A stretch of DNA of 64,000 bases from Cytobacillus oceanisediminis 2691. GTDB lineage: Bacteria; Bacillota; Bacilli; Bacillales; Cytobacillaceae. Of the stretch, positions 1,198 to 59,432 are shown piece by piece (the first letter of the stretch is position 1; the number at the start of each line of letters is the position of its first letter). The notes beneath the pieces are model-generated. The model did not search any database, was not told the origin of the DNA, and was given only the letters and a program-made list of their open reading frames with translations. The stretch spans positions 108,380 to 172,379 of the forward strand of contig NZ_VEEP01000005.1 in assembly GCF_007678455.1 (NCBI RefSeq), read 5' to 3'. Position numbers and translations under genes: made by a program.

Positions 1198-1860
1198 CTG
1201 ACAGTTTGGATTGGTAAAGGGAAACATCTGTTAAAAGAAGCATGGGATTTTGACAGGTTGGACTCGAGAAGGAGGGAAGCTGTCAGAATCAGCAGTTTAT
1301 TTTGACAGGTTGAGTTGGATAGGCGGAAAAGCTGTCAAGAAAAGCATGGAATCTTGACAGGTTGGGCAGGAAAAGTGGAAAAGCTACCAAGAAAAGCGTG
1401 GAATCTTGACAGGTTGGGCAGGAAAAGTGGAAAAGCTGCCAAGAAAAGCGTGGAATCTTGACAGGTTGAGCGGGTGAAGAGGAAAAGCTGTCAAAAAAAG
1501 CATGGAATCTTGACAGGTTGAGCTGGTGAAGGAGAAAAGCTGTCAAAAAAACCATGGAATCTTGACAGGTTGAGCGGGTGAAGAGGAAAAGCTGTCAAAA
1601 AAAGCAGAGAATCTTGACAGGTTGAGCGGGTGAAGGGGAAAAGCTGTCAAAAAAAGCAGAGAATCTTGACAGGTTTGGCTGGTGAAGAGGAAAAGCTGTC
1701 AAAAAAAGCATGGAATCTTGACAAGTTGGGCGGTTGAGTGGGAAAAGCTGTCAAGAAAAGCATGGGATTTTGACAGGTTGAGCAGGGAAAGTGGAAAAGC
1801 TGTCAAAAAAGGCATGGAATCTTGACAGGTTGAGCAGATATATGAGAAAACCTGTTAAAT
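1198..1860 (+). repeat. Array 1: 13 tandem units, exact 52-bp period
   Basis: TTGACAG-like half-sites start at 1198, 1250, 1302, 1354, 1406, 1458, 1510, 1562, 1614, 1666, 1718, 1770 and 1822, always 52 bp apart. The matching inverted half-site CTGTCAA (or a close variant) follows 30 bp after each, as at 1228 and 1852. The unit reads TTGACAGGTTGAG, then a GGGTGAAGAGGAAAAG-like stretch, CTGTCAAAAAAAG and CATGGAATC. Outer units are most diverged and central ones most alike, as expected for an array growing by slippage or unequal exchange. It fills the divergent region between ampS and ytxG. Reading frames across it shift at each unit because 52 is not a multiple of 3, so it is not coding. Confidence 0.95.
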
Positions 1861-2054
1861 TCAGCTTCGCACCTCAAACAGGGATGCCCAGAAAGCTATC
1901 AGCAATGCAAGAAATCTCACTTTTTAACCATATTATCTTCCTGCAAAACTTAAATATATATAATCACTTAACTGGAATTTTATGTTGTAGAAAGATATGC
2001 TAAGAGAGGAAGGAAAAGGGGATGTGTCTATTGAAATAGTTAATGGACAAGGTG

Positions 2055-2079
2055 GTTTACGTCGCCTTATGCTGGGTAA
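2055..2079 (+). promoter_or_regulatory. Sigma-B-type promoter of ytxGH
   Basis: GTTTAC at 2055-2060, a 13-bp spacer, and GGGTAA at 2074-2079 closely match the sigma-B consensus GTTTAA-N13/14-GGGTAT. It lies about 30 bp before the ytxG start. The B. subtilis ytxGHJ (csb40) operon is known to be induced by sigma-B, so site and gene agree. Confidence 0.8.
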
Positions 2080-2110
2080 AATGTACATATGCTAACGGAG
2101 GTGTTCAACA

Positions 2111-2590
2111 GTGGAAATTATTTTGTATTTAAGTGTTGCGGTAATAGCAATCGCATTCTTAGTTTTGGTAGTTTCATTATCCAAAACTCTAAAATCTTTG
2201 CAAACAACTTTAGACAGTGTGTCAGGCACGCTTGATGGCCTGGAGAAGCAGTTGGATGGTGTGACTCGTGAAACAACGGAGCTTCTGCATAAAACAAACA
2301 ATTTGGCTGACGATATTTCCAGAAAATCTGAGAGCTTGAACGGTGTCATTAATGCTGTGAAGGATGTAGGAAATTCTGTTCAGAGATTCAACCAATCGAT
2401 CCATAATGTTCAAACAATGGTTGACCTTCAGATTGACAGGAATAAGGACAAGATTTCACAGGTTGTTCAGTGGAGCAATGTATTCCTTGAGTTGAAGGAC
2501 AAATGGCAGTCAAAAAAAACAGCACGAATTGACCATCAAATGGAAGGCGAAGAGATGGTAGCGAGGCAAAGAGAACGAGTTAGGTATTAA
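2111..2590 (+). CDS. ytxG: YtxG, DUF948 general stress membrane protein
   Basis: A 159-residue protein with one N-terminal membrane segment (about residues 3-24, rich in I, L and V) followed by heptad-like polar sequence, typical of DUF948 proteins. It is probably anchored in the membrane with a cytoplasmic coiled coil; the molecular function is unknown. The start is GTG at 2111 with GGAGGTG about 8 bases upstream. It is followed by ytxH with almost no gap and preceded by a sigma-B-type promoter, so a stress-induced operon is likely. Confidence 0.9.
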   Translation: MEIILYLSVAVIAIAFLVLVVSLSKTLKSLQTTLDSVSGTLDGLEKQLDGVTRETTELLHKTNNLADDISRKSESLNGVINAVKDVGNSVQRFNQSIHNVQTMVDLQIDRNKDKISQVVQWSNVFLELKDKWQSKKTARIDHQMEGEEMVARQRERVRY

Positions 2591-2607
2591 TGAAAGGTGG
2601 AGATAAA

Positions 2608-3090
2608 ATGAACAGGGAACAAAGTCAATATGATGTTAATGGATCAATGAGGGACAGTAACAGTAATAACAGCAATTCCAGAGATTTTGTTACTGGTGCG
2701 ATTGTTGGCGGCCTTGCCGGGGCAATCGCGGCATTATTGCTGGCTCCGAAGTCAGGGAAAGAGTTGCGTGGATCGCTCAATGAGCAAACTTCAACACTTA
2801 AAACCAAGGGCGTGGATCTAGCTTCTGTAGCGAAGGAGAAGGCAGGCGGGCTAAAAGAAACTGTGACACAGCAGTCTTCTAATCTTGTTAACAAAGTGAA
2901 GGACATGAAAAACCAGGACGGAACATCTTCTTCTGTTTCCGAGGAAGACCCGCTGCAGGAAGTGCCAACTTCCATGGCAGAGACAAGCTCCATGGATAAT
3001 ACGCATACGGCCACTGGAGAAGAAATTCAGAAAAAGCTTGAAGAAACACAAAAGGCTTTTGATGAAACAGAAAGCAAACTGAATCAGTAA
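2608..3090 (+). CDS. ytxH: YtxH-domain general stress protein
   Basis: A 160-residue protein. Residues about 29-48 form the glycine/alanine-rich hydrophobic stretch typical of YtxH (GAIVGGLAGAIAALLLAPKS), followed by a long hydrophilic tail rich in K, E, S and T with amphipathic helix character. The start is ATG at 2608, preceded by AGGTGGAG; an in-frame ATG six codons earlier at 2590 overlaps the ytxG stop and has no good ribosome site. It is co-transcribed with ytxG. The function is unknown, but the family is a general stress marker in Bacillus. Confidence 0.88.
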   Translation: MNREQSQYDVNGSMRDSNSNNSNSRDFVTGAIVGGLAGAIAALLLAPKSGKELRGSLNEQTSTLKTKGVDLASVAKEKAGGLKETVTQQSSNLVNKVKDMKNQDGTSSSVSEEDPLQEVPTSMAETSSMDNTHTATGEEIQKKLEETQKAFDETESKLNQ

Positions 3091-3101
3091 GTTTGTCTTG
3101 T

Positions 3102-3144
3102 AAACGGTGAAGTGGTAAGATTACTTCACCGTTTATTTTTATTT
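3102..3144 (+). terminator. Terminator after ytxH
   Basis: Inverted repeat AAACGGTGAAGT (3102-3113) and ACTTCACCGTTT (3123-3134), followed by ATTTTTATTT. It partly separates ytxGH from ytxJ. Confidence 0.85.
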
Positions 3145-3256
3145 AAAGAGCTTTTTTCGCATAGATAATCACTTCAACGTTCTGCAAAGTATTCGCGAAT
3201 CATCAGGAATGATAAATAGGCAAAGCGATCAGAGCCATGAAAAAGGAGAGAGTAGG

Positions 3257-3586
3257 ATGCAAAAAATTAATTCCATTGAAGAATTCGATAAGCTTGTCGA
3301 TTCCGGTGAAACGTTCTTCATGCTGAAGCACAGCACAACCTGTCCAATCAGCGCAACTGGGTATGATGAGTTTGCCAAGTTCGAGCAAAAAAGCAACGGC
3401 CAATTATATTATTTAACTGTCCAGGATTCCCGCGATCTATCAAACCATATTGCCGAGAAATTCCATGTTAAGCATGAATCGCCACAGGCTATTCTATTTG
3501 TCAATTCTGATGTCGCTTGGCATGCTTCTCACTTTAAAATCACGGCAAAATCGCTGTCTGCGGCAAAAGAAGAGAATCTAAAGTAA
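3257..3586 (+). CDS. ytxJ: YtxJ, monothiol bacilliredoxin-like protein
   Basis: A 109-residue thioredoxin-fold protein of the YtxJ family, linked to removal of bacillithiol from oxidised protein thiols. It has a single-cysteine active motif TTCPIS near the N-terminus, where classical thioredoxins have CxxC. It ends in a hydrophilic helix. The start is ATG at 3257, with AAGGAGAG 8 bases upstream; a longer in-frame opening from 3209 lacks a ribosome site. It follows ytxH across a terminator, so it may need read-through or its own promoter. Confidence 0.85.
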   Translation: MQKINSIEEFDKLVDSGETFFMLKHSTTCPISATGYDEFAKFEQKSNGQLYYLTVQDSRDLSNHIAEKFHVKHESPQAILFVNSDVAWHASHFKITAKSLSAAKEENLK

Positions 3587-3611
3587 AAAAACATCCGAAA
3601 GGATGTTTTTT
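3587..3611. terminator. Bidirectional terminator between ytxJ and the FtsA-like gene
   Basis: AAAACATCC, GAAA loop, GGATGTTTTT. A-run and T-run flank the stem, so it can serve both convergent genes. Confidence 0.85.
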
Positions 3612-5769
3612 ACTTTATACTGACCGGATTTTCAAAAGTGATATTTAACTCGTCCCCTGGTGCAAGACAATCGTCAAACGCTGCTTTATCACCGTTTTTC
3701 AACAAAGTGAATCCGCGTGTCTCCTTGGGAATATCGATTTGGGCAAAATTGAAAACATCCTGGAATATGAATGGCTGCACCTCTTTTTGTTTTGTAGTAA
3801 TCTGGTCTCCGTTAAAGATTTGCTCGTCCATCCCAATCCTGGTACCTTCCCTGACGAACGCTGTTATTTCGTGCTCCAGCTGGATCTGCTGTCCATTAAA
3901 GAAGATAGGCATAGTGTCCATCGCACGTATGCCAAGTAACTCTGTAAGTCTTCGGAGTGTGGGTTCTGTTCCCTTTTCAAAGCGTATCGTATCAAGGTGG
4001 TCAAATTTATTATTCAGGCTGGCTGGCACATTATTCACATGAATTTTTCCCATGAACTCCGCAATCTTTTGTTCCTTCCCGTCAATCTTGACATAGAAAG
4101 GGCGTGTATCCCTAAGGATTTCTGCCTGATTGAGTTCCTTCAGTGCGTCTTCAATTGTGTCTGCCATCTCAAAGCTGATTTCGTCCCTGTCGGCAACTTG
4201 CTGTGAAATCGGGACACGCAGGCCATTGCAGGTCAATTTTGACCTTATTTCATACCTTTCTCCATTGAGGATGATAGTTTTGGCAGGAAGCTCTCCAATC
4301 AAATCTTCGAGTGTCAGCGCTGTTCTGACACCATCCTGACCCTTCTCGACAGTCAGCTGATCGCCTCCATCCACCTGATCATCAAAAGTACAAGGTATAT
4401 CATTTTTCAGTAAAACAGGTGGCTGCCCATGTTTGCCGGGTATGGTCACATTCTTGCCATTCAGGCTGACAATCATCGCAAGTCCCGGTTTGCCGTACAG
4501 CTTATTCATTTTGATGCCTGCGGCCAGCAGACAGTCTCCTACGGTCAATTTATTGACTTCGAAAAGCCTCACCGGCTGTCCATTCACGTATACCGTATGA
4601 TACTGGACAGGGGATTGTCTTGCCGCAATCGCGATTCCGATTGGCGTGACAAGCTCGGGTCCTTTCGTGATATGGCTCGCAAATGAAACAGATGAGATGG
4701 CATCAAGACCTCGGATGGCAACTCTGTTGTCCGGCAGGTTCAGCTTGTTTGCAAGCCTTCTGGTCAAATCAGGTGTCAGGCTGCCCCCACCGACAAGCAT
4801 GACTGCTTTTGGTGATTTATCGTTATTCAATCTCAGGATTTCATCACCGATCGTTTCTGCCAGGCGGTCAATCGCAGGGGTGATCCTTTCGATCGCTTCC
4901 TCTTTGCTGATGACAGTCTCGAACCCAAGTATGTCGGTAATGGTAATGGATTCATTTTCGAGCAGCTCCCGCTTTGCTTTTTCAGCAAGAGGGAAGTCGA
5001 GCAGGAATTCATCGCTGACAGCTTCAGTTATTTCGTCTCCGGCAACTGGCACCATTCCATACGCGATTACAGTCCCTGAATCCGTGAGCGCGATATCTGA
5101 TGTCCCCGCACCGATATCAACGAGGGCAACGTTCAATCTTCTCATTGAAGCAGGTATCAATACATTGATTGCGGCAATCGGTTCGAGTGTCAGGGCGTCC
5201 ATCTCCAGACCAGCCCGATCCAAAGCGGCAAGCAGTGACTCCACGACCACTTTAGGAAGGAAGGTTGCAATGATTTCAACAGAAGCCTCTGATCCGCGCT
5301 GATCGATCAGGCTCCCGATTACTTCTCCATCAAGCTGGTAATAAAGCACAGAATATCCGACACAATAATAGTGATGCCCCAGATCATTGCTTTTTTCTCC
5401 AGCTACGGCAGCTTGTGCAAGCTGGACAGCACTTAGTTCAAGATGGAGGATATCTTGCTTCGAAAACATCGGATTGCCAGAAATATCGATAATTGCTTTT
5501 GAACGTTCTGTTTTCAAGGCGCGGCCGGCTGCAGCCACACAAACCTTGGTTAACGGGCCATGTGTAACTTCCAATTCTTCTTTGATTTCAGAAATGATGT
5601 CTGATACGGAGAGGACGTCATGGATCTGGCCGTCCAGCATCGCTCGATCCTTGTGTTCACGGATTATGATTTCGATTGCTTCATAATGTCCATCAGTTTC
5701 TTCCAGGATGATTCCCACTACGGAACGCGTCCCGATATCTAACGCAAACAGTTTATTATTAACTTGCAA
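3610..5769 (-). CDS. FtsA/PilM-like actin-fold ATPase with long C-terminal extension
   Basis: A 719-residue protein. Residues 1-390 form an FtsA/PilM-type actin fold: phosphate-1 motif ALDIGTRSVVG (9-19), an SHS2-like insertion, phosphate-2 motif VDIGAGTSDIAL (217-228) and adenosine motif VGGGS (326-330). Residues 393-719 are not FtsA; they contain several modules with an xNGxx start and a GDxLxxx-like end, suggestive of repeated beta-grasp-like domains. There is no FtsA-type amphipathic C-terminal anchor and no membrane segment. The start is TTG at 5769 behind GAGGGTG. It is not the ftsA of the ftsAZ operon. A partner for this ATPase is not visible here; a role in cell division or envelope assembly is inference from fold only. 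Confidence 0.8.
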   Translation of the reverse strand: MQVNNKLFALDIGTRSVVGIILEETDGHYEAIEIIIREHKDRAMLDGQIHDVLSVSDIISEIKEELEVTHGPLTKVCVAAAGRALKTERSKAIIDISGNPMFSKQDILHLELSAVQLAQAAVAGEKSNDLGHHYYCVGYSVLYYQLDGEVIGSLIDQRGSEASVEIIATFLPKVVVESLLAALDRAGLEMDALTLEPIAAINVLIPASMRRLNVALVDIGAGTSDIALTDSGTVIAYGMVPVAGDEITEAVSDEFLLDFPLAEKAKRELLENESITITDILGFETVISKEEAIERITPAIDRLAETIGDEILRLNNDKSPKAVMLVGGGSLTPDLTRRLANKLNLPDNRVAIRGLDAISSVSFASHITKGPELVTPIGIAIAARQSPVQYHTVYVNGQPVRLFEVNKLTVGDCLLAAGIKMNKLYGKPGLAMIVSLNGKNVTIPGKHGQPPVLLKNDIPCTFDDQVDGGDQLTVEKGQDGVRTALTLEDLIGELPAKTIILNGERYEIRSKLTCNGLRVPISQQVADRDEISFEMADTIEDALKELNQAEILRDTRPFYVKIDGKEQKIAEFMGKIHVNNVPASLNNKFDHLDTIRFEKGTEPTLRRLTELLGIRAMDTMPIFFNGQQIQLEHEITAFVREGTRIGMDEQIFNGDQITTKQKEVQPFIFQDVFNFAQIDIPKETRGFTLLKNGDKAAFDDCLAPGDELNITFENPVSIK

Positions 5770-5934
5770 ATTCGTGCACCCTCTAACTTAAAGTATCATA
5801 TGATGCTTTATCGCTTAAAAGCGTTTAATTATTAAAGAAAAATGCGTGACAACGATATTTTTTTCAGATATAATTACTTTTATTATATTGTATAGCTTAA
5901 CCACAGTAGATGAGGCTCTTTACATAAGGCCCTC

Positions 5935-6086
5935 TTAATATTATCGGTCTCTGATGCCTTTGCTTTAGGCCAGGGCTCCAGAAAGCCGACGATATTAAAA
6001 AAGCACCATACAACTCTATCGCTATAAAGAAGATTCAGGTGATCACTGTTTCTCATCCTGGCATTAAAAGAACCTGGTGTTCTTTT
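5935..6086 (+). promoter_or_regulatory. Possible structured leader of aroA
   Basis: The 370-bp gap before aroA holds two inverted repeats. TTAATATTATCGG (5935-5947) pairs with CCGACGATATTAA (5986-5998) with one wobble and one mismatch, enclosing a CTG-GCCT/AGGC-CAG hairpin (5951-5973). AAAAGAAC (6066-6073) pairs perfectly with GTTCTTTT (6079-6086) over a 5-base loop. I cannot match this to a known riboswitch class. It could be an attenuation leader or the remains of an older element. Confidence 0.4.
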
Positions 6087-6141
6087 CTTGATGATTCTTA
6101 AAGGTAGGGCTAAAATGAATTTCGAAAGGACGGGAAGGAAA

Positions 6142-7215
6142 ATGACAAAAAATCTTGACCAGCTTAGGAATCGTGTGGATGAATTGAATTTAGAGCTTCT
6201 CTCATTAATTAATGAAAGAGCCCTGCTCGTCCAGGAAATTGGCCGTGCAAAAGAAACACAGGGCGTCTATCGTTATGACCCTGTTCGTGAACGAGAAATG
6301 CTCGATTTGATCAAGGAAAGCAATAATGGGCCTTTTGAAAATTCCACGATTGAGCATATCTTCAAGGAAATTTTCAAAGCCGGACTTGAACTTCAATCAG
6401 ATGACCACCGCAAAGCTCTTCTTGTTTCCAGGAAGAAAAAGCCTGAAGATACGATAATAGATATTAAAGGATTGAAAATTGGCAATGGAACTCCGGACTT
6501 TGTTTTCGGTCCATGTTCAGTAGAGTCATATGAACAAGTAGCCACAGTGGCGGAAGCGGTTAAAGCGAAAGGCTTCAAGTTGCTTCGCGGCGGTGCTTTT
6601 AAACCAAGGACTTCACCTTATGACTTCCAGGGATTAGGTGTCGAAGGACTGAAGATTTTAAAAAGAGTTGCGGATGAGTATGATCTAGCTGTCATCAGTG
6701 AAATCGTCACACCTGCTGACATTGAAATTGCCGTGGATTATCTGGATGTCATACAGATCGGTGCCCGCAATATGCAAAACTTCGAGCTTCTTAAAGCAGC
6801 AGGGGCAGTGAACAAGCCGATTTTATTAAAACGCGGGCTTGCCGCTACGATTGAAGAATTCATTAATGCCGCTGAATACATCATGGCACAGGGAAATGGC
6901 CAAATCATTCTATGCGAGCGCGGAATCCGGACATATGAAAAAGCTACCCGGAATACGCTTGATATTTCCGCAGTGCCTATCCTGAAAAAGGAAACACATC
7001 TGCCGGTCATGGTGGACGTTACCCACTCAACTGGCAGAAGGGATTTATTGCTGCCGGCAGCTAGAGCCGCACTGGCAATCGGAGCAGATGGCGTCATGGC
7101 AGAGGTGCATCCAGATCCAGCAGTCGCTTTGTCCGACAACGCACAGCAAATGGATCTTAAACAGTTTGATGAATTTTTAGAGGGATTAAAATCCACTCCA
7201 TTTGTAAGAGTGTAA
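6142..7215 (+). CDS. aroA: Bifunctional chorismate mutase / DAHP synthase
   Basis: A 357-residue fusion enzyme that catalyses the first step of the shikimate pathway (PEP plus erythrose 4-phosphate to DAHP). Residues 1-90 are an AroQ-type chorismate mutase ([19 protein letters not shown], then [11 protein letters not shown]). Residues about 105-357 are a DAHP synthase of the KDPG-synthase-like type, with [41 protein letters not shown] and [13 protein letters not shown]. The mutase domain is the feedback sensor for chorismate and prephenate in B. subtilis. The start at 6142 matches the length of the B. subtilis protein (358); upstream ATGs at 6088 and 6115 would add residues absent from that protein. 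It is followed by a terminator, then ccpA. Confidence 0.95.
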
Positions 7216-7223
7216 AGTTTAAG

Positions 7224-7253
7224 AAACCTTCCTTTAAAAAGGAAGGTTTTTTT
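7224..7253 (+). terminator. Terminator after aroA
   Basis: AAACCTTCC and GGAAGGTTT around an A/T-rich tip, followed by a T-run. It implies that ccpA is largely transcribed from its own promoter. Confidence 0.9.
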
Positions 7254-7475
7254 CATGAGCAATTAGGGGTAACTTAAAAAGAAGACAATATCCAGATCGC
7301 AATAAAAATATATAAAAATAAGATGTTCAGATTGCGGGATTGTTGTGGATATCGTATGATTAATAACATAATTAAACTTGTACATATAATCACAAACTCA
7401 AAAAATGATTATAGTTTCAATTTTTGCTGTAAACTAAGCGAAAAATGCCGTTTATTACCTTAAGGAGTGAAATAG

Positions 7476-8474: not shown

Positions 8475-8482
8475 TCTGAGCA

Positions 8483-8513
8483 GCCTCTTGCAGCAAATGC
8501 AAGGGGCTTTTTT
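8483..8513 (+). terminator. Terminator after ccpA
   Basis: GCCTCTTGCA, loop GCAAA, TGCAAGGGGC, then TTTTTT; one G-U pair in the stem. Confidence 0.9.
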
Positions 8514-8654
8514 AGCAAAATTACGTGAAATCCTCTTATAAAAGATGAAATCCAACGTGATATAAAAAAATACTGCCAAATCTTCTGATACAGCACTAAC
8601 CAATGAAAGTCTCGGCTGCTTTTATTTAACCTTAACGCCTACAATTTAAAGTAA

Positions 8655-8805
8655 GCCGACCACTTTTTGAATTAATTCGATCACTTTTCAAATTAATTCG
8701 ACCACTTTTTCAGTTTTTTCGACCACATTTCAAATTAATTCGACCACATTTTCGGTTTTTTCGACCACATTTCAAGTTTTTTCGACCAACTCGAAATGTC
8801 GACCT
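8655..8805. repeat. Short-period array A: 21-bp units anchored on TCGACCAC
   Basis: CGACCAC (one copy CGATCAC, the last CGACCAA) starts at 8657, 8678, 8699, 8720, 8741, 8762 and 8783, exactly 21 bp apart, with a shortened extra copy at 8800. Between the anchors are A/T-rich fillers of two kinds, TTTCAAATTAATT and TTTCAGTTTTTT. It lies between the ccpA and acuC terminators, in a convergent gap of 394 bp. No reading frame or promoter is evident. Confidence 0.9.
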
Positions 8806-16444: not shown

Positions 16445-16469
16445 TGCTTTATTAACTTTATAGCAAAAA

Positions 16470-16706
16470 GCTTTGAAGGGAATAAGTAGTGCTTCTGTCC
16501 ATGTTCCAGAAAGCCGGCGGCCGCTGTGAGCCGGTACAAACAGAAGGATGAATTACCTCCCCGAGCGCCGCAGTGAACTGGATTCATAGTAGCCGCGGAC
16601 GGTTTAACCGTTATTTTATGGAGTGGAAGACTTTTTATTTTAGTTTTCAAGCCGGGTGGTACCGCGCATTTAGCGCCCCTGCATTTATTGCAGGGGCGTT
16701 TTTTAT
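16470..16706 (+). promoter_or_regulatory. Tyr-specific T-box leader with antitermination terminator
   Basis: The conserved T-box sequence GGGTGGTACCGCG is at 16654-16666, with TGGT able to pair with the acceptor end of tRNA-Tyr (discriminator A). A candidate specifier UAC (Tyr) is at 16535-16537, in the loop after GAGCCGG. The terminator is CGCCCCTGCA / TGCAGGGGCG (from 16674) followed by TTTTTT. Uncharged tRNA-Tyr would stabilise the antiterminator and allow transcription of tyrS. Confidence 0.93.
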
Positions 16707-18123: not shown

Positions 18124-18240
18124 TTCGGCCACTTTTGCAAATATATCAGCGGATTTTTAAATATATCGACCATACTTTCAAAAATATCGGCGGATTTTCA
18201 AATATATCGACCACAATTGAGTAGATATCGACCAACCCGA
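18124..18240. repeat. Short-period array B: 20-21-bp units anchored on TCGACCA/TCGGC
   Basis: TCG-type anchors (TCGGCCAC, TCAGCGG, TCGACCAT, TCGGCGG, TCGACCAC, TCGACCAA) start at 18125, 18146, 18166, 18187, 18207 and 18228, so the spacing alternates 21 and 20. The filler is TTTTCAAATATA-like. It resembles array A near 8.7 kb in anchor and filler. It lies between the tyrS and rpsD terminators in a convergent gap. Confidence 0.88.
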
Positions 18241-37635: not shown

Positions 37636-37830
37636 TTAGATAGACGGAATGCTGGAATCGAGAAAAAGGTCCGATAACAGGTCTTTAATGGACAAACGGA
37701 AGGCTGAAAAGGTGAAAAATGTCCGATAGAAGGTGCCTAACGGACAAACAGAAGGCTGGGAACGAGAAAAGTGTCCGATAGAAGGTCTCTAACGGACAAA
37801 CAGAAGACTGGGAACGTGTAGAATTTCAAA
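37636..37830 (+). repeat. Array 4: 52-bp period with TGTCCG/CGGACA half-sites
   Basis: GTCCGATA starts at 37669, 37721 and 37773, and GGACAAAC at 37690, 37742 and 37794, both 52 bp apart. A further partial unit at the left is aligned by ACGGAATGCTG at 37644 (52 bp before ACGGAAGGCTG at 37696). The unit is TGTCCG, 15 bp, CGGACA, 25 bp. The right end decays after 37825. It lies between tpx and ytxK, two rightward genes, and shares spacing but not sequence with arrays 1-3. Confidence 0.9.
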
Positions 37831-42019: not shown

Positions 42020-42545
42020 ATCATTTGATAGGTTAGAGAGAAAAACGGGGAAGCTGTAAAAAGAGCCTGGATTCTGACAGGTTTGGACCATTTGGTGTTA
42101 TAACTGTCAAAATAAGTTCGGGATTATGACAGGTTTGAAGCAATAAGGGGAGAAGTTGTCAAAAAAAGTCCTGTATTCAGACAGGGTTGAAGCATTCAGA
42201 GGAAAAGCTGTCAAAAAAAGCCCTGGATTCAGACAGGTTTGAAGCATTCAGAGTAAAAGCTGTCAAAAAAAGCCCTGAATTCAGACAGGTTTGAAGCATT
42301 CAGAGTAAAAGCTGTCAAAAAAAGCCCTGGGTTCAGACAGTTTTGAAGCATTCAGAGGAAAAGCTGTCAAAATAACCGCTGAATTTAGACAGGTTTGAAG
42401 CATTCGGAGGAAAAGCTGTCAAAAAAAGCCCTGAATTCAGACAGGTTTGAAGCATTCAGAGTAAAAGCTGTCAAATAAAGCCCTGAATTCAGACAGGTTT
42501 GAAGCATTCGGAGGAAAGGCTGTCAAAAAAACACTGGAATAGGTT
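42020..42545 (+). repeat. Array 2: about 10 tandem units, exact 52-bp period
   Basis: GACAGG-type anchors begin at 42076, 42128, 42180, 42232, 42284, 42336, 42388, 42440 and 42492, all 52 bp apart. CTGTCAA follows 28 bp after each. Degenerate units flank both sides (GATAGG near 42027 and a truncated copy near 42541). The unit reads GACAGGTTTGAAGCATTC, AGAGGAAAAGCTGTCAAA, then AAAAGCCCTGAATTCA. It fills the 650-bp gap between the moaB terminator and the broken GNAT gene, ending about 25 bp before that start codon. Confidence 0.95.
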
Positions 42546-51925: not shown

Positions 51926-51960
51926 GGCAATATAAATTGAATACAAATCCTGCATCGCGG

Positions 51961-52044
51961 GAGAGGTTCATAGCGGACACCCTCTATAAAAAACTATGGA
52001 TTTGAATAATTTCAACCATACCCATGAGGATGTGGTTTTTTCAT
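51961..52044 (+). promoter_or_regulatory. preQ1-I riboswitch and terminator upstream of queF
   Basis: The compact aptamer is at 51961-51996: AGAGGTTCATAGC, then ACCCTCTATAAAAAACTA, the standard preQ1-I pattern with the A-rich tail that closes the pseudoknot. It is followed by a hairpin (AACCATACC with GATGTGGTT, 52012-52040) and TTTTTT as terminator. preQ1 binding would stop transcription of queF. Confidence 0.93.
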
Positions 52045-52098
52045 TAGCAGGGTTTTCGGCCTCGTTTAGCGTTTGCGGACATTAGTGGAGGCTTTATA

Positions 52099-52596: not shown

Positions 52597-52601
52597 ATAG
52601 G

Positions 52602-52633
52602 AAAAGAGCAGCTGCAGATGCTGCTCTTTTTTA
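52602..52633 (+). terminator. Terminator after queF
   Basis: AAAAGAGCAG, CTGCAGATG, CTGCTCTTTT, then TT. Confidence 0.9.
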
Positions 52634-52660
52634 ACTGGAAAAAAACACGGATTTTTTCCA

Positions 52661-52812
52661 ACTCGCTATAAAAATTCAAAAGTCGCTATATAAAAAAGAA
52701 AGTCGCTATAAAAAAGAAATTTTCGCTGTATAAACAGGAAAGTCGCTATAAAAAATTTTTTCGCTATATAAAAAAGGAAATTTCCGCTATAAAAAATCGA
52801 AACTCGCTAAAA
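52661..52812. repeat. Short-period array C: about 20-bp units anchored on TCGCTATA
   Basis: TCGCTATA-type anchors begin at 52663, 52683, 52703, 52723, 52743, 52761, about 52783 and 52804, mostly 20 bp apart. Each is followed by an A-run (AAAAAAGAAAG-like). It occupies the convergent gap between the queF terminator and the M24 peptidase terminator. No gene or promoter is evident. Confidence 0.88.
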
Positions 52813-52839
52813 AAGAAGCTTCCTCAATGAAAATCAAAA

Positions 52840-52878
52840 ACAAACCGCCTGGATCACATGACAGCAGGCGGTTTTTGG
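52840..52878 (-). terminator. Terminator of the M24 peptidase gene
   Basis: AAACCGCCTG and CAGGCGGTTT; on the minus strand TTTGTTTTTG follows. Confidence 0.88.
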
Positions 52879-52885
52879 GCTTATT

Positions 52886-53983: not shown

Positions 53984-54193
53984 AGATATTCCTCCTCTAT
54001 ATGTACATCACACTATGAGAGTAGCAATTACCTGGTCAAAAGTAAAACTTTTAATGATAAGAGTTGTTGGGTAAAAAGAAAATGGAAGCAGGAGATTGTC
54101 AAAGGGTGTTGAAATAGTTTATTTATATGGCTGATTTTTGCAAGGTTTCTAACGTGATTTTTGTGAAAATAGCCCAATGAAAGGAGCGATAAT

Positions 54194-54874
54194 ATGAAAG
54201 TATCTTATCACGGCCATTCTGTTGTTAAAATTGAATCGAATGGGAAAACCATCCTGATTGATCCATTCATTACTGGAAATGACCTGACCGATCTGAAGGT
54301 GGAGGATGTGAAGCCAGATGTGATTATCCTCACCCATGCGCATGGAGACCACCTCGGGGATACCCTTGAATTGGCGAAGAAACATGATGCTCTGGTAATC
54401 GCCAATTTCGAAGTCGCTACATATTTAAGCTGGAAAGGCCTGAGCACACATGGGATGTCGATTGGCGGCGCGTATGAATTTGATTTTGGCAAAGTCAAGA
54501 TGACCCAGGCCTTCCATGGAACAGGTATGGTCACGGAAAACAATGAAGTGATTTATGGAGGCATGCCTGCTGGCATCCTGTTCATGGCAGAAGGAAAAAC
54601 AGTGTTCCATGCGGGCGACACTGGTCTGTTTTCTGACATGAAGCTGATTGGCGAAAGGCATCCAATTGACCTGGCATTCCTGCCGATTGGCGACAATTTT
54701 ACGATGGGACCAGAAGATGCGGCACTGGCTGCTGAATTTCTAGGCGCAAAGCAAGTTGTGCCAATCCATTTCAATACGTTCCCGCCAATCAAGCAGGATC
54801 CCCATGCCTTCGTAAAAATGCTGAAAAACAATGAAGGTCGTGTCCTTGAAGCGGGAGAAGCGATTGAATTGTAA
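54194..54874 (+). CDS. ytkL: UPF0173 metallo-beta-lactamase-fold hydrolase (YtkL)
   Basis: A 226-residue metal-dependent hydrolase. It starts [20 protein letters not shown] and carries the metal motif HAHGDHLGD, then HAGDTGLF and IPIHFNT-type sequence [11 protein letters not shown]. The substrate is unknown. The start ATG at 54194 follows AAAGGAGCG. Confidence 0.93.
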
Positions 54875-54881
54875 TACCCAT

Positions 54882-54911
54882 GGCTGCACAAAATTTGTGC
54901 GGCTTTTTTAT
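54882..54911 (+). terminator. Terminator after ytkL
   Basis: GGCTGCACA, AAATT, TGTGCGGCT with G-U pairs, then TTTTTT. Confidence 0.85.
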
Positions 54912-54976
54912 TTACCATGCTTTTTTCTGCCTGTTAAGCATAGATATGAATTAAGACAACCTATAGGAGGGCAAGA

Positions 54977-55225
54977 ATGAAGAAGAACCGTTACTTATTG
55001 TACCTGCTGTTATGCGGCGTCATGCTTTACATCGCATTGCCGGAGATTAATCTCCAGGCGGGAGGAAAGGAAGCCCTGTTTGCAGGCTTCTGGCTGTTTC
55101 TCGCTCTGCTGGTTTTTGCCGGGAATCTGGCGGCTTTCTTATACACGCCGAAAAAGAAGGCCGGCACAGGAAGCGGAAAAATGGGAAGCAACCAGAAAAG
55201 AAAATCGCGCGTCTACACTGGCTGA
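54977..55225 (+). CDS. Small two-helix membrane protein, 82 residues
   Basis: Not recognised. Hydrophobic segments are at residues about 5-22 (YLLYLLLCGVMLYIALP) and 34-56 (ALFAGFWLFLALLVFAGNLAAFLY), followed by a basic tail with many Lys and Gly. The start is ATG at 54977 behind ATAGGAGGGC. It is monocistronic with its own terminator. Confidence 0.78.
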   Translation: MKKNRYLLYLLLCGVMLYIALPEINLQAGGKEALFAGFWLFLALLVFAGNLAAFLYTPKKKAGTGSGKMGSNQKRKSRVYTG

Positions 55226-55250
55226 TTTCAATCGGCCAGTTTTTCTTTTT
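55217..55250 (+). terminator. Terminator overlapping the small membrane gene stop
   Basis: ACTGGCTGAT pairs with ATCGGCCAGT, followed by TTTTCTTTTT; it includes the last codons. Confidence 0.85.
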
Positions 55251-55374
55251 AAGAGTATCATTCTTCTAAATTATGGCCTTGACCCTAATACAATTGAATC
55301 AAACCCTTTAAAACCTTATAATGTAAATGGATAGAGCTACATTGAACGGAAAATTATGATAAAGGGTGAAAGTC

Positions 55375-56694
55375 TTGGCAACTAAGCATGAACAAATACT
55401 TCAATATATAGATGAATTGCCAATAGGTGAAAAAATATCGGTGCGCCAAATCGCCAAGGCACTTAACGTAAGCGAAGGAACTGCATACAGAGCCATAAAG
55501 GAATCGGAAAATAAAGGGTATGTCAGCACGATTGAACGTGTCGGCACCATCAGGATTGAGCGGAAAAAGAAAGAAAATATCGAGAAGCTTACGTTCGCAG
55601 AAGTCGTCAACATCGTTGATGGACAGGTCCTTGGGGGACGCGGAGGGCTTCATAAAACATTGAATAAATTTGTCATCGGGGCGATGAAACTGGAGGCGAT
55701 GATGCGCTATACAGGCGCGGGCAACCTGCTGATCGTCGGGAACCGCGATAAAGCGCACGAGCATGCGCTAAGAGCCGGAGCAGCCGTATTGGTGACTGGC
55801 GGTTTCGATGCCGAGGACCATGTCAAAAAGCTGGCCGATGAATTGCAGCTGCCGATCATCTCAAGCAGTTATGATACATTTACAGTCGCGACGATGATCA
55901 ACCGTGCAATTTATGATCAACTGATCAAAAAAGAAATCATCCTTGTCGAGGATATCCTTACTCCGGTAGCCGAAACGGTTTTCCTTAAGGCGAATGACAC
56001 TGTATCAGATTGGTATCGCCATAAGGACGAAACGCTGCACAGCCGTTTTCCTGTCGTCGACCACAATATGAAAGTGATTGGGATGATCACTTCAAAGGAT
56101 GTCATGGGCCATGAACAGGATACCTTGATCGAGAAAATCATGACGAAAAGCCCAATGACCGTCAGCGGGTCGACGAGTGTTGCTTCATCTGCCCATATGA
56201 TGGTGTGGGAAGGAATTGAGGTATTGCCAGTTGTTGATGATGGAAACAAGCTTCAGGGCATCGTCAGCAGACAGGATGTATTGAAAGCCCTTCAGATGGT
56301 CCAGCGCCAGCCGCAGGTAGGGGAGACGCTGGACGATACAGTGACGAACCAGCTTGTCCTGGCAAAAGGAAAAACCAAGGATGAAGATATTTTCCGCTGC
56401 CAGGTGACTCCGCAGATGACGAACCACCTTGGGACCATTTCATACGGTGTTTTTACAACCATCGTGACAGAAGCAGCGAACCGTGTGTTGCGAGGATATA
56501 AAAAAGGTGACCTGGTCGTTGAGAATATGACGATTTATTTTATCAAGCCTGTACAAATTGACAGTGTCATAGAAATTTATCCGAAGGTTCTCGAGGTAGG
56601 AAGGAAGTTTGGGAAGGTCGATATTGAAGCCTTCAATGACGGAGTTCTTGTCGGCAAGGCGATGATGATGTGCCAGCTGATCGACAGACATTAA
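55375..56694 (+). CDS. ytoI: YtoI: HTH, DRTGG, CBS pair and hotdog domain protein
   Basis: A 439-residue multi-domain regulator. In order: a winged HTH (about 5-65, ISVRQIAKALNVSEGTAYRAIKE), a DRTGG domain (about 70-175), two CBS domains (about 195-310, FPVVDHNMKVIGMITSKDVMG and LPVVDDGNKLQGIVSRQDVL) and a thioesterase-like hotdog domain (about 330-435). This points to a nucleotide- and acyl-sensing transcription factor; targets are unknown. The start is taken as TTG at 55375 behind AAAGGGTGA, giving the MATKHEQIL start known for the family; GTG at 55366 is the alternative. Confidence 0.9.
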   Translation: MATKHEQILQYIDELPIGEKISVRQIAKALNVSEGTAYRAIKESENKGYVSTIERVGTIRIERKKKENIEKLTFAEVVNIVDGQVLGGRGGLHKTLNKFVIGAMKLEAMMRYTGAGNLLIVGNRDKAHEHALRAGAAVLVTGGFDAEDHVKKLADELQLPIISSSYDTFTVATMINRAIYDQLIKKEIILVEDILTPVAETVFLKANDTVSDWYRHKDETLHSRFPVVDHNMKVIGMITSKDVMGHEQDTLIEKIMTKSPMTVSGSTSVASSAHMMVWEGIEVLPVVDDGNKLQGIVSRQDVLKALQMVQRQPQVGETLDDTVTNQLVLAKGKTKDEDIFRCQVTPQMTNHLGTISYGVFTTIVTEAANRVLRGYKKGDLVVENMTIYFIKPVQIDSVIEIYPKVLEVGRKFGKVDIEAFNDGVLVGKAMMMCQLIDRH

Positions 56695-56700
56695 TAGATT

Positions 56701-56734
56701 AAAAAGCCGATCCGTGATTGGATCGGCTTTTTTG
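56701..56734. terminator. Terminator between ytoI and ytpI
   Basis: AAAAAGCCGATCC, GTGATT, GGATCGGCTTTTTT; usable from both sides. Confidence 0.92.
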
Positions 56735-56738
56735 AACG

Positions 56739-57035
56739 TTAATTTTCCTGCGCTTCCTTCACGGCATGGGGAAGATAGAACTTGTAGGCTTTAATCCCGC
56801 CCCATACACTCAATGAACCTATGGCAATGAATATAGCACCAACGATGTAGGTGACAGTTGTCTGGAAAAGGAATAGCTGGTTAATCCCGAAAGATGCGAC
56901 GAAAAGTCCCAGGGCGATGCTGGATTTGGCAGAAAGCCATTTACGCTCCGCAGGACGTTTGCTGCGGACATATTTAATCTTGTAAAAGATATAAAAGACG
57001 AATGAAAGAACGATCAAAAGTACGAGAATAGGCAT
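56739..57035 (-). CDS. ytpI: YtpI-like membrane protein
   Basis: A 98-residue protein with three hydrophobic segments: residues 2-18 (PILVLLIVLSFVFYIFY), about 36-55 and 60-80 (TVTYIVGAIFIAIGSLSVWGG). It matches YtpI by position between ytoI and nrnA and by layout. The function is unknown. The start is ATG at 57035 with TTGGAGGAATTG upstream. Confidence 0.85.
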   Translation of the reverse strand: MPILVLLIVLSFVFYIFYKIKYVRSKRPAERKWLSAKSSIALGLFVASFGINQLFLFQTTVTYIVGAIFIAIGSLSVWGGIKAYKFYLPHAVKEAQEN

Positions 57036-57182
57036 TGCAATTCCTCCAAATTCAATAATCTACTCTATTTTACCGTTTATTTAAGCAGAATGCCATACAG
57101 TTGTCCTTGTAGCGGCCTTATATAAAGGTTAAAATCTATTATTTTCGATTAAACCCTTCCCACATAAGCAAAAGAAATAATT

Positions 57183-57290
57183 ATGTCACAAAAAAATTAT
57201 TTATTCGCAAAAAGATAATTTTAATCGCAAAAAAAGGACTTTAATCGCAAAAAAGAATTTTATTCGCAAAAACCACCATTCGCAAATTGG
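57183..57290. repeat. Short-period array D: 20-bp units anchored on TCGCAAAA
   Basis: TCGCAAAA-type anchors lie at 57205, 57225, 57245 and 57264, with a TCACAAAA copy at 57185 and a shortened TCGCAAAT at 57280. Spacing is 20, 20, 20, 19, 16. Filler is AAGATAATTTTAA-like. It sits in the divergent gap between ytpI and nrnA. Confidence 0.85.
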
Positions 57291-57403
57291 AAAAAAACAC
57301 GGCTTTTTTTCAGCTCCACACTCCCCGTAAAATGTCTTCATGCTTTTCTTTTCCAAAAAATATGTTCATAATTGAGATATGAAAAAGGTGAAGGAGCATT
57401 TAA

Positions 57404-58339
57404 ATGAAAGAGCAAATACTTGAGGCAATTGAAAATTATGAGACCATCATTATCCACCGCCATGTGAGGCCTGATCCTGATGCGTACGGTTCCCAGGGGG
57501 GACTTGCCGAGATTTTAAAGGCTTCCTATCCTGAAAAGAATATTTACACTGTTGGCGCAGAGGAACCATCACTTCATTATCTGAGAAGGCTTGACTCTGT
57601 TCAGGACGATATTTTTAAAGGTGCGCTTGTCATTGTCTGTGACACCGCTAATGCCGAGCGGATTTGTGACGAGCGTTACCGCCTGGGAGAACAGCTTGTG
57701 AAGATTGACCACCATCCAAATGAAGATCCATATGGTAACCTTCAATGGGTTGATACTACAGCAAGTTCCACGAGTGAAATGATTTATGAATTTTACCTTA
57801 CTTTCAAGGATAGGGGCTTAAGGATGTCTGATGAGGCAGCAAGATTGCTTTATGCCGGTATTGTCGGAGACACGGGCCGATTCCTTTATCCAAGCACGAC
57901 CAATAAGACATTTGCCTATGCGGGAGAACTGATTCACTACAATTTCTCACGCACAGAGCTATATGACAGAATGTATGAACTCGCACCTAATGTGGTGAAG
58001 TTGAACGGATACATCTTACAGAACTTTGAGTTGCTCGAAAATGGTGCTGCGAAGGTCGTAATGAAGCAGGAATTACTGGACCAGTATTCCGTGAAACCTT
58101 CAGAAGCATCGTTGCTTGTCAGTGAACTGGGCAATGTTGGGGGAATCAAAGCGTGGGTGTTCTTTATCGAAGAAGAAGACCAAATCCGTGTGCGTCTCCG
58201 CTCTAAAGGACCTGTCATCAATACGATTGCCAGGAAATATAATGGCGGCGGACATCCGCTCGCTGCAGGGGCGTCAATTTACTCATGGGATGATGTCGAC
58301 CGTGTCCTGGCTGACCTTATCGAAGCTTGCAGAGAATAA
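57404..58339 (+). CDS. nrnA: NrnA, oligoribonuclease / pAp phosphatase
   Basis: A 311-residue DHH-DHHA1 phosphoesterase that degrades short RNA and converts 3'-phosphoadenosine 5'-phosphate to AMP. Metal motifs: IHRHVRPDPDAYGSQ, VCDTANAERI, KIDHHPNEDPYG and GGGHPLAAGAS. The start is ATG at 57404 behind AAAAGGTGAAGGAG. It is monocistronic. Confidence 0.96.
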   Translation: MKEQILEAIENYETIIIHRHVRPDPDAYGSQGGLAEILKASYPEKNIYTVGAEEPSLHYLRRLDSVQDDIFKGALVIVCDTANAERICDERYRLGEQLVKIDHHPNEDPYGNLQWVDTTASSTSEMIYEFYLTFKDRGLRMSDEAARLLYAGIVGDTGRFLYPSTTNKTFAYAGELIHYNFSRTELYDRMYELAPNVVKLNGYILQNFELLENGAAKVVMKQELLDQYSVKPSEASLLVSELGNVGGIKAWVFFIEEEDQIRVRLRSKGPVINTIARKYNGGGHPLAAGASIYSWDDVDRVLADLIEACRE

Positions 58340-58345
58340 AAATAT

Positions 58346-58374
58346 GGTGCGTTTCATTCAGAAACGCACCTTTC
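58346..58374 (+). terminator. Terminator after nrnA
   Basis: GGTGCGTTTC, ATTCA, GAAACGCACC, then TTT. Confidence 0.88.
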
Positions 58375-58377
58375 CAA

Positions 58378-58701
58378 TCATCTATTGTTAAAATAAACCC
58401 GCAAAGCATCAGCAATATCGGCATCCATTCCATCGGTTCTGATTGTATAATGGTCACCATCGAGGGACGAGGTAAAATCAGCGATGCCCTGCAGTTTTAA
58501 AAAGTCATCAATGTCGGATAGATGCTCACCCTGGTTCTTAAGGCTTTTTTGTCCGATAAAATCATCATTCACATAAACATCATACTGATCTTCATTTAGT
58601 TTTACCTGATTATCAGAATCAGCATTGTTCATCGCATAAGGCGGGAATAAACCACCTCCGACGCCGCTACCACTATTTCCAGCTCCGTTGTTAAAACTCA
58701 T
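58378..58701 (-). CDS. Hypothetical protein, 107 residues, Gly/Asn-rich N-terminus
   Basis: Not recognised. It begins MSFNNGAGNSGSGVGGGLFP, a flexible lead, then an acidic body (VNDDFIGQKSLKNQGEHLSD) and a C-terminal helix ADIADALRVYFNN. No signal peptide or membrane segment. The start is ATG at 58701 behind GGAGGGATT. It is convergent with nrnA and lies between nrnA and the sporulation genes ytrHI, so a spore role is possible but unproven. Confidence 0.72.
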   Translation of the reverse strand: MSFNNGAGNSGSGVGGGLFPPYAMNNADSDNQVKLNEDQYDVYVNDDFIGQKSLKNQGEHLSDIDDFLKLQGIADFTSSLDGDHYTIRTDGMDADIADALRVYFNNR

Positions 58702-58823
58702 CTGAAATCCCTCCTGTCTATACTTGCTCTGATAATGTATGATTCCCGTATCTTGCAAGAGTCACACGAGTAGATAACGAATGGAATAAATTACCTTTGT
58801 TTATGGATATCGGGTGGGAAGCC

Positions 58824-59432
58824 CAAAACTGTCAAGAAAACGCGGTGATTGTGACAGGTTTCCGGGTTCAGTACCCAAAGCTGTCAAAAAAACGTAGTTA
58901 TTGTGACAGGTTCCCGGGTTCAGAGACCAAAGCTGTCAATAAAACGTAGTTATCGTGACAGGTTTCTGGGTTCAAAGGCCAAGGCTGTCAAGAAAAGGTA
59001 GTTATTGTGACAGGTTTCAAGGTTCAGAGGTCAAAGCTGTCAATAAAACGTAGTTATTGTGACAGGTTTCCGGGTTCAAGGGCCAAAGCTGTCAAGAAAA
59101 CACGGTAATTGTGACAGGTTCCAAGGTTCAAAGGCCAAAGCTGTCAAGAAAACCTAGTTATTGTGACAGGTTTCAGGGTTCAGCGGCCAAAGTTGTCAAG
59201 AAAACATCGGTATTGTGACAGGTTACAAGGTTCAAAGGCCAAAGTTGTCAGGAAAACACGGTTATCGTGACAGGTTACAAGGTTCAAAGCCCAAGGCTGT
59301 CAAGAAAACGTAGTTATTGTGACAGGTTTCCGGGTTCAAGGGCCAAAGTTGTCAGGAAAACACTGTTATCGTGACAGGTTTCAGGGTTCAAAGGCCAAAG
59401 CTGTCAAGAAAACGCGGAATCGTGTCAGGTTT
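58824..59432 (+). repeat. Array 3: about 12 tandem units, exact 52-bp period
   Basis: GACAGG anchors begin at 58853, 58905, 58957, 59009, 59061, 59113, 59165, 59217, 59269, 59321 and 59373, all 52 bp apart, with a decayed GTCAGG near 59424. CTGTCAA-type half-sites begin at 58829 and repeat in step to 59401. The unit reads GACAGGTTTCCGGGTTCA, AGGGCCAAAGCTGTCAAG, then AAAACGTAGTTATTGT. It fills the 817-bp gap between the hypothetical gene and ytrI, both leftward. Rightward reading frames here are artefacts of the repeat. Confidence 0.95.

Follow-up and report, generated by a model that had tools for sequence, protein, structure and literature searches.

Satellites with 52-nt repeats have been described in Bacillus and other Firmicutes by Subirana and Messeguer, and their function is not known, according to the available part of that report (PMC8161180). 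In this part of the text, the satellites are mostly non-coding and variable in sequence, several families occur per genome, presence and length vary among strains and species, sequence conservation between species is reported to be absent, and a polymerizing protein or a small RNA is already proposed. Of the 27 consensus repeats given there, 5 carry the skeleton TGTC-N19-GACA and 11 are without a significant dyad; the word "strand" appears three times in the available text (where the topics are genome alignment, RNA, and double-stranded DNA), and the string "palindrom" does not appear. These satellites are a standing puzzle, with a constant length, a variable sequence, and no function.

The consensus of Tn3/gamma-delta res sites is TGTCYNNTA, with site centers about 53 bp apart, and the crossover site of serine resolvases is 28 bp long with a 2-bp center. 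Chi, KOPS/SRS, and Ter are replication-oriented chromosomal signals, consisting of short dispersed words or, for Ter, a few sites. REP/BIME elements are associated with a Y1 (RAYT) transposase.

Here we analyzed a 64,000-nucleotide stretch from Cytobacillus oceanisediminis 2691 (the window), which contains four arrays with a 52-bp period. The original prediction took these arrays as a candidate for an undescribed system; they are members of the published class of 52-nt satellites, whose function is not known according to the available part of its description (PMC8161180). Our preferred reading, to which we give a probability of roughly 0.46, is that a dimeric DNA-binding protein occupies them as helically phased arrays oriented to replication.

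Results

Tandem Repeats Finder (TRF) detects four arrays with a period of 52 bp in the window, with 0-1% indels. All four contain exact dyads and are given on the + strand. Array 1 (1213-1837, 12.0 copies) has the half-sites TGTCAA../..TTGACA and a polar linker, which reads GGTTGAGC..GGAAAAGC on the + strand. Array 2 (37647-37816, 3.3 copies, half-sites TGTCCGATAG../..CTAACGGACA) is located directly 3′ of a hairpin that appears terminator-like by eye, which is itself 3′ of a gene with a Redoxin domain (Pfam). Array 3 (42051-42531, 9.3 copies) has the half-sites TGTCAA../..CAGACA. Array 4 (58819-59433, 11.8 copies, half-sites TGTCAAGAAA../..ATTGTGACA) also has a period of 156 bp. Its polar strand is the + strand, although the flanking ORFs closest to it lie on the - strand according to the ORF listing alone, and a nearby - strand ORF (59519-60031) has no Pfam match.

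The exact pattern TGTC-N19-GACA, which is its own reverse complement and was therefore listed on the + strand, occurs 30 times in the window, compared with a mean of 0.91 per shuffle (maximum 4 in 100 shuffles), and all 30 dyads fall inside the four arrays. The two-unit skeleton is found 25 times vs 0 in the shuffles, and all 25 measured dyad-to-dyad steps are 52 bp. The period and the positions 1229/1252 (a TGTT variant), 37720, 42105, and 58830 are as originally predicted. The prediction also placed the half-sites in every unit, which is too strong: the ~36 TRF copies contain 30 exact dyads, array 1 includes TGTT, TACC, and TGCC units, array 2 opens with GGTC, and the final units of arrays 1, 3, and 4 are decayed. 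Both the dyad and the linker vary among units, and linkers are repeated inside arrays. A CRISPR array, with near-identical repeats and unique spacers, was rejected on these grounds.

The four arrays are a small part of a larger set. A genome-wide scan for the skeleton found 523 consecutive dyad pairs in the same genome, compared with 0 in the reversed control, so that the prediction of four unlinked arrays was right about the four and understated the number. The skeleton is present in 20 of the 21 genus genomes examined (this one included), and 28 of the 135 genera sampled from the order also have it. The arrays are not only recent copies of each other: several half-site flavors occur within ~384 kb of this genome (TGTCAA, TGTCCGAA, TGTCCGTCAT, GGTCACATA, plus 53-bp CCCTTATG arrays), and similar flavors reappear in other genera. 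Spacing and inverted half-sites are kept while the filler diverges, as predicted, and far beyond the window.

The half-sites remain mirror-symmetric across arrays though their sequence changes. In 34 dissimilar arrays (over 7 differences among 27 places; 46 of 80 named arrays were dropped as too similar), positions 5-10 pair between the halves in 138 of 204 cells, with 62.6 expected, and 0 of 1000 shuffles reach this count. At positions 8-9, the base-pair type (A:T or G:C) is retained and its orientation is not: the type agrees in 67 of 68 cells in these arrays (45 expected from shuffles) and in 163 of 168 cells in a set of 84 arrays. The 18 unpaired cells at positions 8-9 of the 34 arrays comprise 17 with the same base in both halves (A-A, G-G, C-C, T-T) and one G-T; same-base mismatches are not above the shuffle expectation (17 vs 22), and the missing ones are the other kinds of mismatch. 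Within arrays, transversions keep the pair type in 55 of 60 cases at positions 8-9 vs 189 of 449 cases in the spacer (leaving out linkers that have over 10 differences; p 5e-14, which treats related units as independent, so that this and the other p values are guides only). The strictness of TGTC is outside these counts because units were selected by TGTC.

Where a pair is mismatched in the array consensus, a single change restores Watson-Crick pairing in 184 of 279 cases, with 91 expected (the within-array change counts leave out units whose arms differ from that consensus at more than four places). Such changes would be expected from a pull towards symmetric half-sites, but equally from a hairpin. 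A hairpin was suspected early from mismatches in a few arrays that looked like G-T pairs; in the full counts at paired positions, G-T (81) has no preference over A-C (67; p 0.29) among single changes, same-base mismatches are just as numerous (69), and after double changes a pair remains in only 6 of 13 cases. The mismatches do not look like those of a hairpin. Between the two options originally offered, a DNA-binding protein or a folded nucleic acid, this pattern favors a protein on duplex DNA, with folding still compatible.

The same data bear on the alternative that the arrays function as transcribed RNA, with strings of unit hairpins serving as small RNAs or as a protein sponge, which we consider unlikely. 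It agrees with the strong mirror symmetry, with the restoring changes, and with RNA-folding z-scores, which are near -4 on both strands: the sense mean is -4.4, 38 of 44 arrays have a sense z below -2, and sense is below antisense in 29 of 44 (p 0.05). The 52-nt satellites of B. coagulans also occur in RNA-seq reads, according to the available part of PMC8625621. It is opposed by the G-T, same-base, and double-change counts, by the nature of the unpaired cells at positions 8-9, by a z of only -1.2 for array 3 (L108_0) in G006, a complete conspecific genome, and by the start of arrays 2 and 3 directly after hairpins that are terminator-like by eye. At the gathering threshold, Rfam matches only a T-box and a PreQ1 riboswitch in the window, both elsewhere than the arrays.

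In G006, 65 of the 66 arrays have a common orientation with respect to replication. This count assumes the origin at the contig start, with which the coding direction over sampled stretches agrees, and the terminus at a site at 2.548 Mb that we take to be dif-like, with three mismatches to the B. subtilis sequence; with the terminus assumed at 2.45 Mb, the count is 64 of 66. Polarity tracks replication more than genes, a further point against arrays acting as RNA. The genes flanking the 65 arrays are in the shared orientation in 90 of 130 cases, compared with ~128 of 200 for background intergenic stretches (counted with the terminus at 2.45 Mb; the newer boundary affects one of 60 stretches). 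A coding-strand proxy for polarity agrees in only 50 of 77 named loci, which counts against our preferred reading. The 60 G006 stretches were selected through matches to array queries on the + or the - strand rather than from the full set of arrays, and genes were called with a simple longest-ORF script. Leading-strand purine bias was rejected as the cause of the polarity: background intergenic purine content is 0.52 vs 0.60 in arrays, and an asymmetric motif, independent of purine content, gives the same polarity, lying on the + strand in all 100 listed of 265 G006 matches, all in the first replichore.

Two further genomes support this polarity. In G136, from another family, the motif is on the + strand in all 50 listed of 119 matches (0.206-1.345 Mb), and a dif-like site is found at 2.58 Mb. 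In G232, from a third family, in which neither origin nor terminus was located, all 80 forward matches are at 0.321-2.537 Mb, and the 20 listed of 86 reverse matches are at 0.137-0.335 Mb. No report on the replichore orientation of 52-nt repeats was seen among the listed titles and abstract openings of an open-access collection. We note as a separate observation that two arrays in G232 stand head to head at one place.

For 65 of the 66 G006 arrays, the polar strand serves as the template for the lagging strand. This would suit hairpins or cruciforms that form in single-stranded DNA on that template and are handled by an HUH-type transposase, a primase, or a recombination protein; the dyads could fold, and the restoring changes fit as well. 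We consider this decidedly unlikely, as G-T is not significantly commoner than A-C, and what positions 8-9 retain is base-pair type, not pairing.

The spacing of the units is nearly invariant. Steps are exactly 52 bp in 397 of 406 cases in G006, and the other 9 are 51 or 53 bp; adjacent linkers in this genome differ at ~20% of positions. The named loci give 466 of 481 steps at 52 bp, a count that is biased because these loci were found with a 52-bp pattern (array detection covered periods 52 and 53). The dyad is 27 bp long, and dyad spacings of 15, 16, 18, and 20 occur in a few units.

Array length and presence vary among relatives. Measured with one method, array 1 has 13.8 units in this genome and 24.0 in G006, and array 4 has 13.2 and 16.3, respectively, in the same context (L107); arrays 2 and 3 are nearly equal in length in both. 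We note that the present assembly consists of 477 contigs, which may have cut array lengths. The arrays are absent from the same places in two other species: G011, which is array-free, has a 52-bp spacer in place of array 1 and a 38-bp spacer in place of array 4, array 2 is replaced by 45 bp in G017 and by ~400 bp of other sequence in G011, and array 3 is missing from both. Among related species, array numbers differ greatly. A search with array 3 alone found no similar plasmid or phage DNA, and a short array is present on one IMG/VR contig.

This variation within and between species is what functionless satellites would give, growing and shrinking by slippage or unequal recombination. We find this explanation hardly probable, since changes in length (9 of 406 steps) are much less frequent than base changes (~20% of linker positions), both the half-sites and the type of base pair are conserved between genera, and the orientation holds in three families.

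Accessory sites of a serine recombinase, resembling Tn3/gamma-delta res sites, are very improbable, even though the outer TGTC, the variable spacer, the A/T-rich minor-groove part, and half-sites such as TGTCCGATAG are reminiscent of them. Tn3 sites I, II, and III also differ in half-site spacer length, according to the available part of PMC9943657. This genome, G006, G002, and G012 each have a single PF00239 gene despite hundreds of two-unit matches each, the gene in this genome encodes a YneB family protein and adjoins lexA, and the array-free G011 has a PF00239 match of similar length and score; a dedicated resolvase was rejected on these grounds. The array dyad also has no symmetric 2-bp crossover center, because 27 bp is an odd length.

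Discussion

On our preferred reading, a dimeric DNA-binding protein, each 52-bp unit would be one operator, made of two inverted half-sites and a 25-bp polar linker. A half-site would comprise TGTC and about six further positions, giving 27 bp end to end. Positions 5-7 are fixed for each array flavor, positions 1-7 may be read in the major groove, and positions 8-9 may be read in the minor groove. As 52 bp corresponds to five helical turns, the dimers on an array would share one face of the DNA and could form an ordered nucleoprotein cluster, possibly with cooperative binding. The flavors within one genome may reflect related proteins of differing specificity or one permissive protein; their large number is a point against this reading, as several paralogues would be needed. 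The restoring changes at mismatched pairs and the RNA-folding z-scores also weigh against it. No gene for a binding protein was found beside the arrays: among 286 flanking proteins, clusters common to at least two species are small (largest 8). The five largest clusters (nine representatives) are response-regulator, ABC, SDR, NERD, and DAGK domain proteins, and the largest shared families among the 286 are response regulators, ABC ATPases, and short-chain dehydrogenases.

Because the arrays are intergenic, dispersed, and nearly all oriented alike to the fork, a chromosome-scale role on the origin-to-terminus axis appears more plausible than regulation of neighboring genes. Candidate roles are organization, segregation, and a polar barrier or loading site. 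More speculatively, and in our opinion doubtful as yet, the arrays may belong to a new chromosome-axis system of Bacillaceae, in which a DNA-binding family with diversifying specificity would assemble on dispersed, helically phased operator arrays. With nearly all of them running in the origin-to-terminus direction, these arrays would serve as a polar element in replication, in segregation, or in the formation of loops. We know of no counterpart to a chromosome-organizing system built on such arrays. If the arrays are oriented chromosome elements, such a system would exist in many soil bacteria of the group. The half-site skeleton, the base-pair-type signature, and the near-perfect polarity make the puzzle of the 52-nt satellites directly testable, through whatever binds the half-sites and through the effect of inverting or removing an array.

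The window arrays resemble the satellites of Subirana and Messeguer in their repeat length (51-53 nt), in the several sequence families of one genome, and in their partial conservation among strains with length seldom kept (arrays 1 and 4 differ between the two genomes of the species, 2 and 3 hardly at all). Unlike those satellites as described, the TGTC arrays have a common skeleton across genera. The lack of between-species conservation is a description of the class rather than a criterion for membership, and for the TGTC subset it needs amending. The class does not depend on TGTC, because non-TGTC 52-nt satellites exist; this and the 11 published consensus repeats without a significant dyad count against our preferred reading.

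Like Tn3/gamma-delta res sites, the arrays have inverted half-sites starting with TGTC, and several dimers would occupy spaced sites; unlike res, which has three sites, they have 3-24 units per array, no dedicated recombinase, and a dyad of odd length. They share a preferred orientation per replichore with Chi, KOPS/SRS, and Ter, and differ from these in being dyad arrays; in the linkers, the words for SRS and Chi of B. subtilis show no enrichment (GAGAAGGG, 2 vs 1.3 expected; AGCGG, 17 vs 14.6). The proposed chromosome-axis system would be a bacterial counterpart of oriented boundary elements. The arrays extend the published class by a skeleton of half-sites common across genera, by a signature in base-pair type, and by replichore polarity.

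Four 52-bp arrays in the window

TRF found arrays with a period of 52 bp at positions 1213-1837, 37647-37816, 42051-42531, and 58819-59433 of the window (arrays 1-4), confirming the four arrays of the original prediction. The exact dyad, TGTC-N19-GACA (27 bp, followed by a 25-bp linker), occurs 30 times against 0.91 expected, with all 30 inside arrays 1-4, and consecutive dyads at 52 bp (the two-unit skeleton) gave 25 matches against 0 expected. The half-sites are kept in these 30 dyads but not in every unit as claimed, since there are degenerate units with TGTT, TACC, TGCC, or GGTC, and the units at the array edges are decayed. In a complete genome of the same species (G006), consecutive dyads follow each other at exactly 52 bp in 397 of 406 steps, whereas adjacent linkers differ at 20% of positions. 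A length of 52 bp makes five helical turns at 10.4 bp per turn, so the dyads of one array all lie on the same helical face.

The window also contains arrays with a period of ~20-21/39-42 bp (8645-8788, 18134-18220, 52663-52818, and 57168-57272), the first two of which have CGACCAC in common, as well as matches to a T-box leader (16464-16683) and a PreQ1 riboswitch (51957-52003).

Distribution of the skeleton

The genome-wide scan proposed earlier gave 523 two-unit matches in the own genome assembly (G000, 4.9 Mb in 477 contigs) and 0 for the reversed pattern. A period scan of ~384 kb of this genome, made independently of the skeleton, returned 20 rows: 19 arrays and one period-51 shadow. Fourteen arrays have period 52 and TGTC half-sites (one of them weak), two have period 52 and half-sites GGTCACATA../..TATGTGCCC, and three have period 53 and half-sites CCCTTATG../..CATAAGGG. 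The GGTCACATA../..TATGTGCCC arrays at G000 C11:73896-74214 and C11:171395-171713 contain the 27-bp dyad, showing that the outer tetramer can vary while the geometry is constant. The 53-bp CCCTTATG../..CATAAGGG arrays, as at G000 C433:37605-38580 and 78681-79715 (L029 and L027), have a geometry unlike that of the 27-bp dyad class; one of these two stretches runs into N.

Period and half-sites are also kept at other loci and in relatives. The two-unit skeleton is present in 20 of the 21 genus genomes (own included), with 16 to 615 matches apiece, and none was found in the remaining one, G011, from another species. The three-unit skeleton was found in 66/397 genomes and 28/135 genera drawn from the order, and in 8/398 genomes of a class-wide draw (3/360 outside the order, in one family only). 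Among the matches listed in a named scan are Mesobacillus, Neobacillus, Cytobacillus, Litchfieldia, Evansella, Ureibacillus, Heyndrickxia, Robertmurraya, Virgibacillus, Thalassobacillus, Trichococcus, and others. Bacillaceae-type arrays also occur in records titled Chryseobacterium sp. ISL-80 (L131, L179, L198, and L199), an organism name that we infer is probably wrong. A short TGTCTAAGAA-type array lies on a phage-like contig (L032, IMG/VR UViG_3300007759_000741, 3500-3720), with two flanking proteins similar to the neighbours of an array from the strain labelled ISL-80.

Genomic context and polarity

The arrays are located between genes, and arrays 2 and 3 start directly after terminator-like hairpins, as judged by eye. 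Comparison of the same gaps in relatives, as had been suggested, showed that presence differs: the places syntenic to arrays 2 and 3 hold short spacers only in G017 (another species) and ~400 bp of other sequence in G011, and those syntenic to arrays 1 and 4 hold short spacers only in G011. Copy number differs as well, with 24.0 units for array 1 in G006 (G006:C1:3673496-3674743) versus 13.8 in the own genome by one method, so array lengths may be collapsed in the many-contig assembly. Nothing unusual stands among the Pfam-matched genes beside the window arrays, which comprise DUF948, a Redoxin-domain gene, a YtxK-like methylase, a molybdopterin-binding domain protein, a GNAT domain, a DHH-family protein and, further off, DNA polymerase III alpha. 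Gene families recurring next to arrays in other species were common superfamilies only. Neighbour pairs in G006 are convergent in 21 cases and divergent in 9 (p 0.04).

The linker of each unit is polar (e.g. GGTT..GGAAAAGC). We sampled 66 arrays in 60 stretches of the single G006 contig, picked via array-query matches, placing the origin at the contig start and the terminus at a dif-like site (2,548,034). The purine-rich strand is in the leading orientation in 65 of the 66 arrays. The exception, L102 (G006:C1:3319101-3320080), possibly arose from a small local inversion; one adjoining gene is also lagging. Of the 130 genes that flank these 65 arrays, 90 are leading, and five of the arrays sit between two lagging genes. 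The mean purine fraction is 0.60 in arrays versus 0.52 on the leading strand of background intergenic DNA, where 64% of 200 pieces are more than half purine. G006 contains the asymmetric motif GACAGGTT-N16-AAAGCTGTC 131 times in forward and 134 times in reverse orientation; among the matches listed, 100/100 are forward, all before 1.98 Mb.

In G136, from another family, all of the matches listed (50 of 119) are forward (0.206-1.345 Mb), a dif-like site is at 2.581 Mb, and three near-miss matches at 3.2, 3.8, and 4.3 Mb are all reverse. In G232, from a third family, 80/80 forward matches lie within 0.321-2.537 Mb and the reverse matches listed (20 of 86) at 0.137-0.335 Mb, suggesting orientation in blocks, though no replichore boundaries were located in this genome. 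The stretch G232:C1:320318-321177 holds, in less than 1 kb, two head-to-head arrays with different half-site flavours. With local coding direction as the sole guide, 50/77 named loci agree, and 29/39 where coding is strongly one-sided.

Half-sites of a putative dimer operator

We compared 34 named arrays differing from each other at >7/27 positions, counting half-site positions inward from the outer end (TGTC, 1-4). At positions 5-10 the two halves are paired in 138/204 cells versus 62.6 expected, which 0/1000 shuffles reach (135 versus 62 when frequency-weighted), and each position shows all four bases. This mirror symmetry could be caused by a hairpin or by identical half-sites of a dimer, the alternatives of folded nucleic acid and DNA-binding protein left open in the original prediction.

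Folding of the paired half-sites as a stem is the less preferred explanation. Single changes at paired positions within arrays gave 81 G-T, 67 A-C, 69 same-base, and 24 other mismatches, double changes left a pair in 6/13 cases, and re-dealing the 3' arms within arrays scarcely alters the pairing at positions 5-10 (1437 observed, 1416 expected), all of which argues against a stem. So do positions 8-9, where the base-pair type is the same in both halves in 67/68 cells (45 expected) and the 18 unpaired cells comprise 17 same-base and one G-T. The same-base cells are not in excess (22 from shuffles); it is the other mismatches that are absent. Transversions at positions 8-9 are A<->T or G<->C swaps in 55/60 cases versus 189/449 in the central spacer, and A:T and T:A are indistinguishable to a minor-groove reader. 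Single changes restored consensus-mismatched pairs in 184/279 cases (91 expected from the spacer spectrum), and RNA folding z is low (means -4.4 sense and -3.9 other strand), slightly lower for the sense strand in 29/44 arrays. These data are neutral or favour a hairpin, but symmetric half-sites would also give the restored pairs and the low folding z, and we therefore prefer dimer half-sites, with a hairpin less probable.

We tentatively propose as the likeliest reading, at a probability of about 0.46, that each unit is an operator bound by a putative dimeric protein, and that each array would carry a protein cluster on one DNA face, the clusters being oriented along the replication axis. Their dispersal and polarity may point to a role in organisation, segregation, or as a polar barrier.

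Comparison with known systems

The array half-site is reminiscent of the known Tn3 res half-site consensus, and a serine recombinase was therefore considered as the binder; it is unlikely, as the array-rich genomes G000, G006, G002, and G012 each have a single PF00239 gene and array-free G011 has a similar match. The own-genome gene encodes a YneB family protein adjoining lexA.

The arrays had been regarded as the best candidate for an undescribed system. However, Subirana and Messeguer have published 52-nt and 20-21-nt satellites in Bacillus, constant in length and variable in sequence, with a function not known according to the part of their paper available to us (PMC8161180). The second class resembles the ~20-21/39-42-bp arrays of the window. 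An available excerpt of another of their papers reports 52-nt satellites in B. coagulans RNA-seq reads (PMC8625621). Among 27 consensus repeats taken from Table 1 of PMC8161180, 5 contain TGTC-N19-GACA and 16 show a dyad at p < 0.05, the other 11 not. Together with the published features of the class, these five repeats identify the window arrays as members of the 52-nt satellites. Contrary to the authors' statement, in the part available, that sequence conservation is absent, a skeleton common to repeats is visible in their own table.
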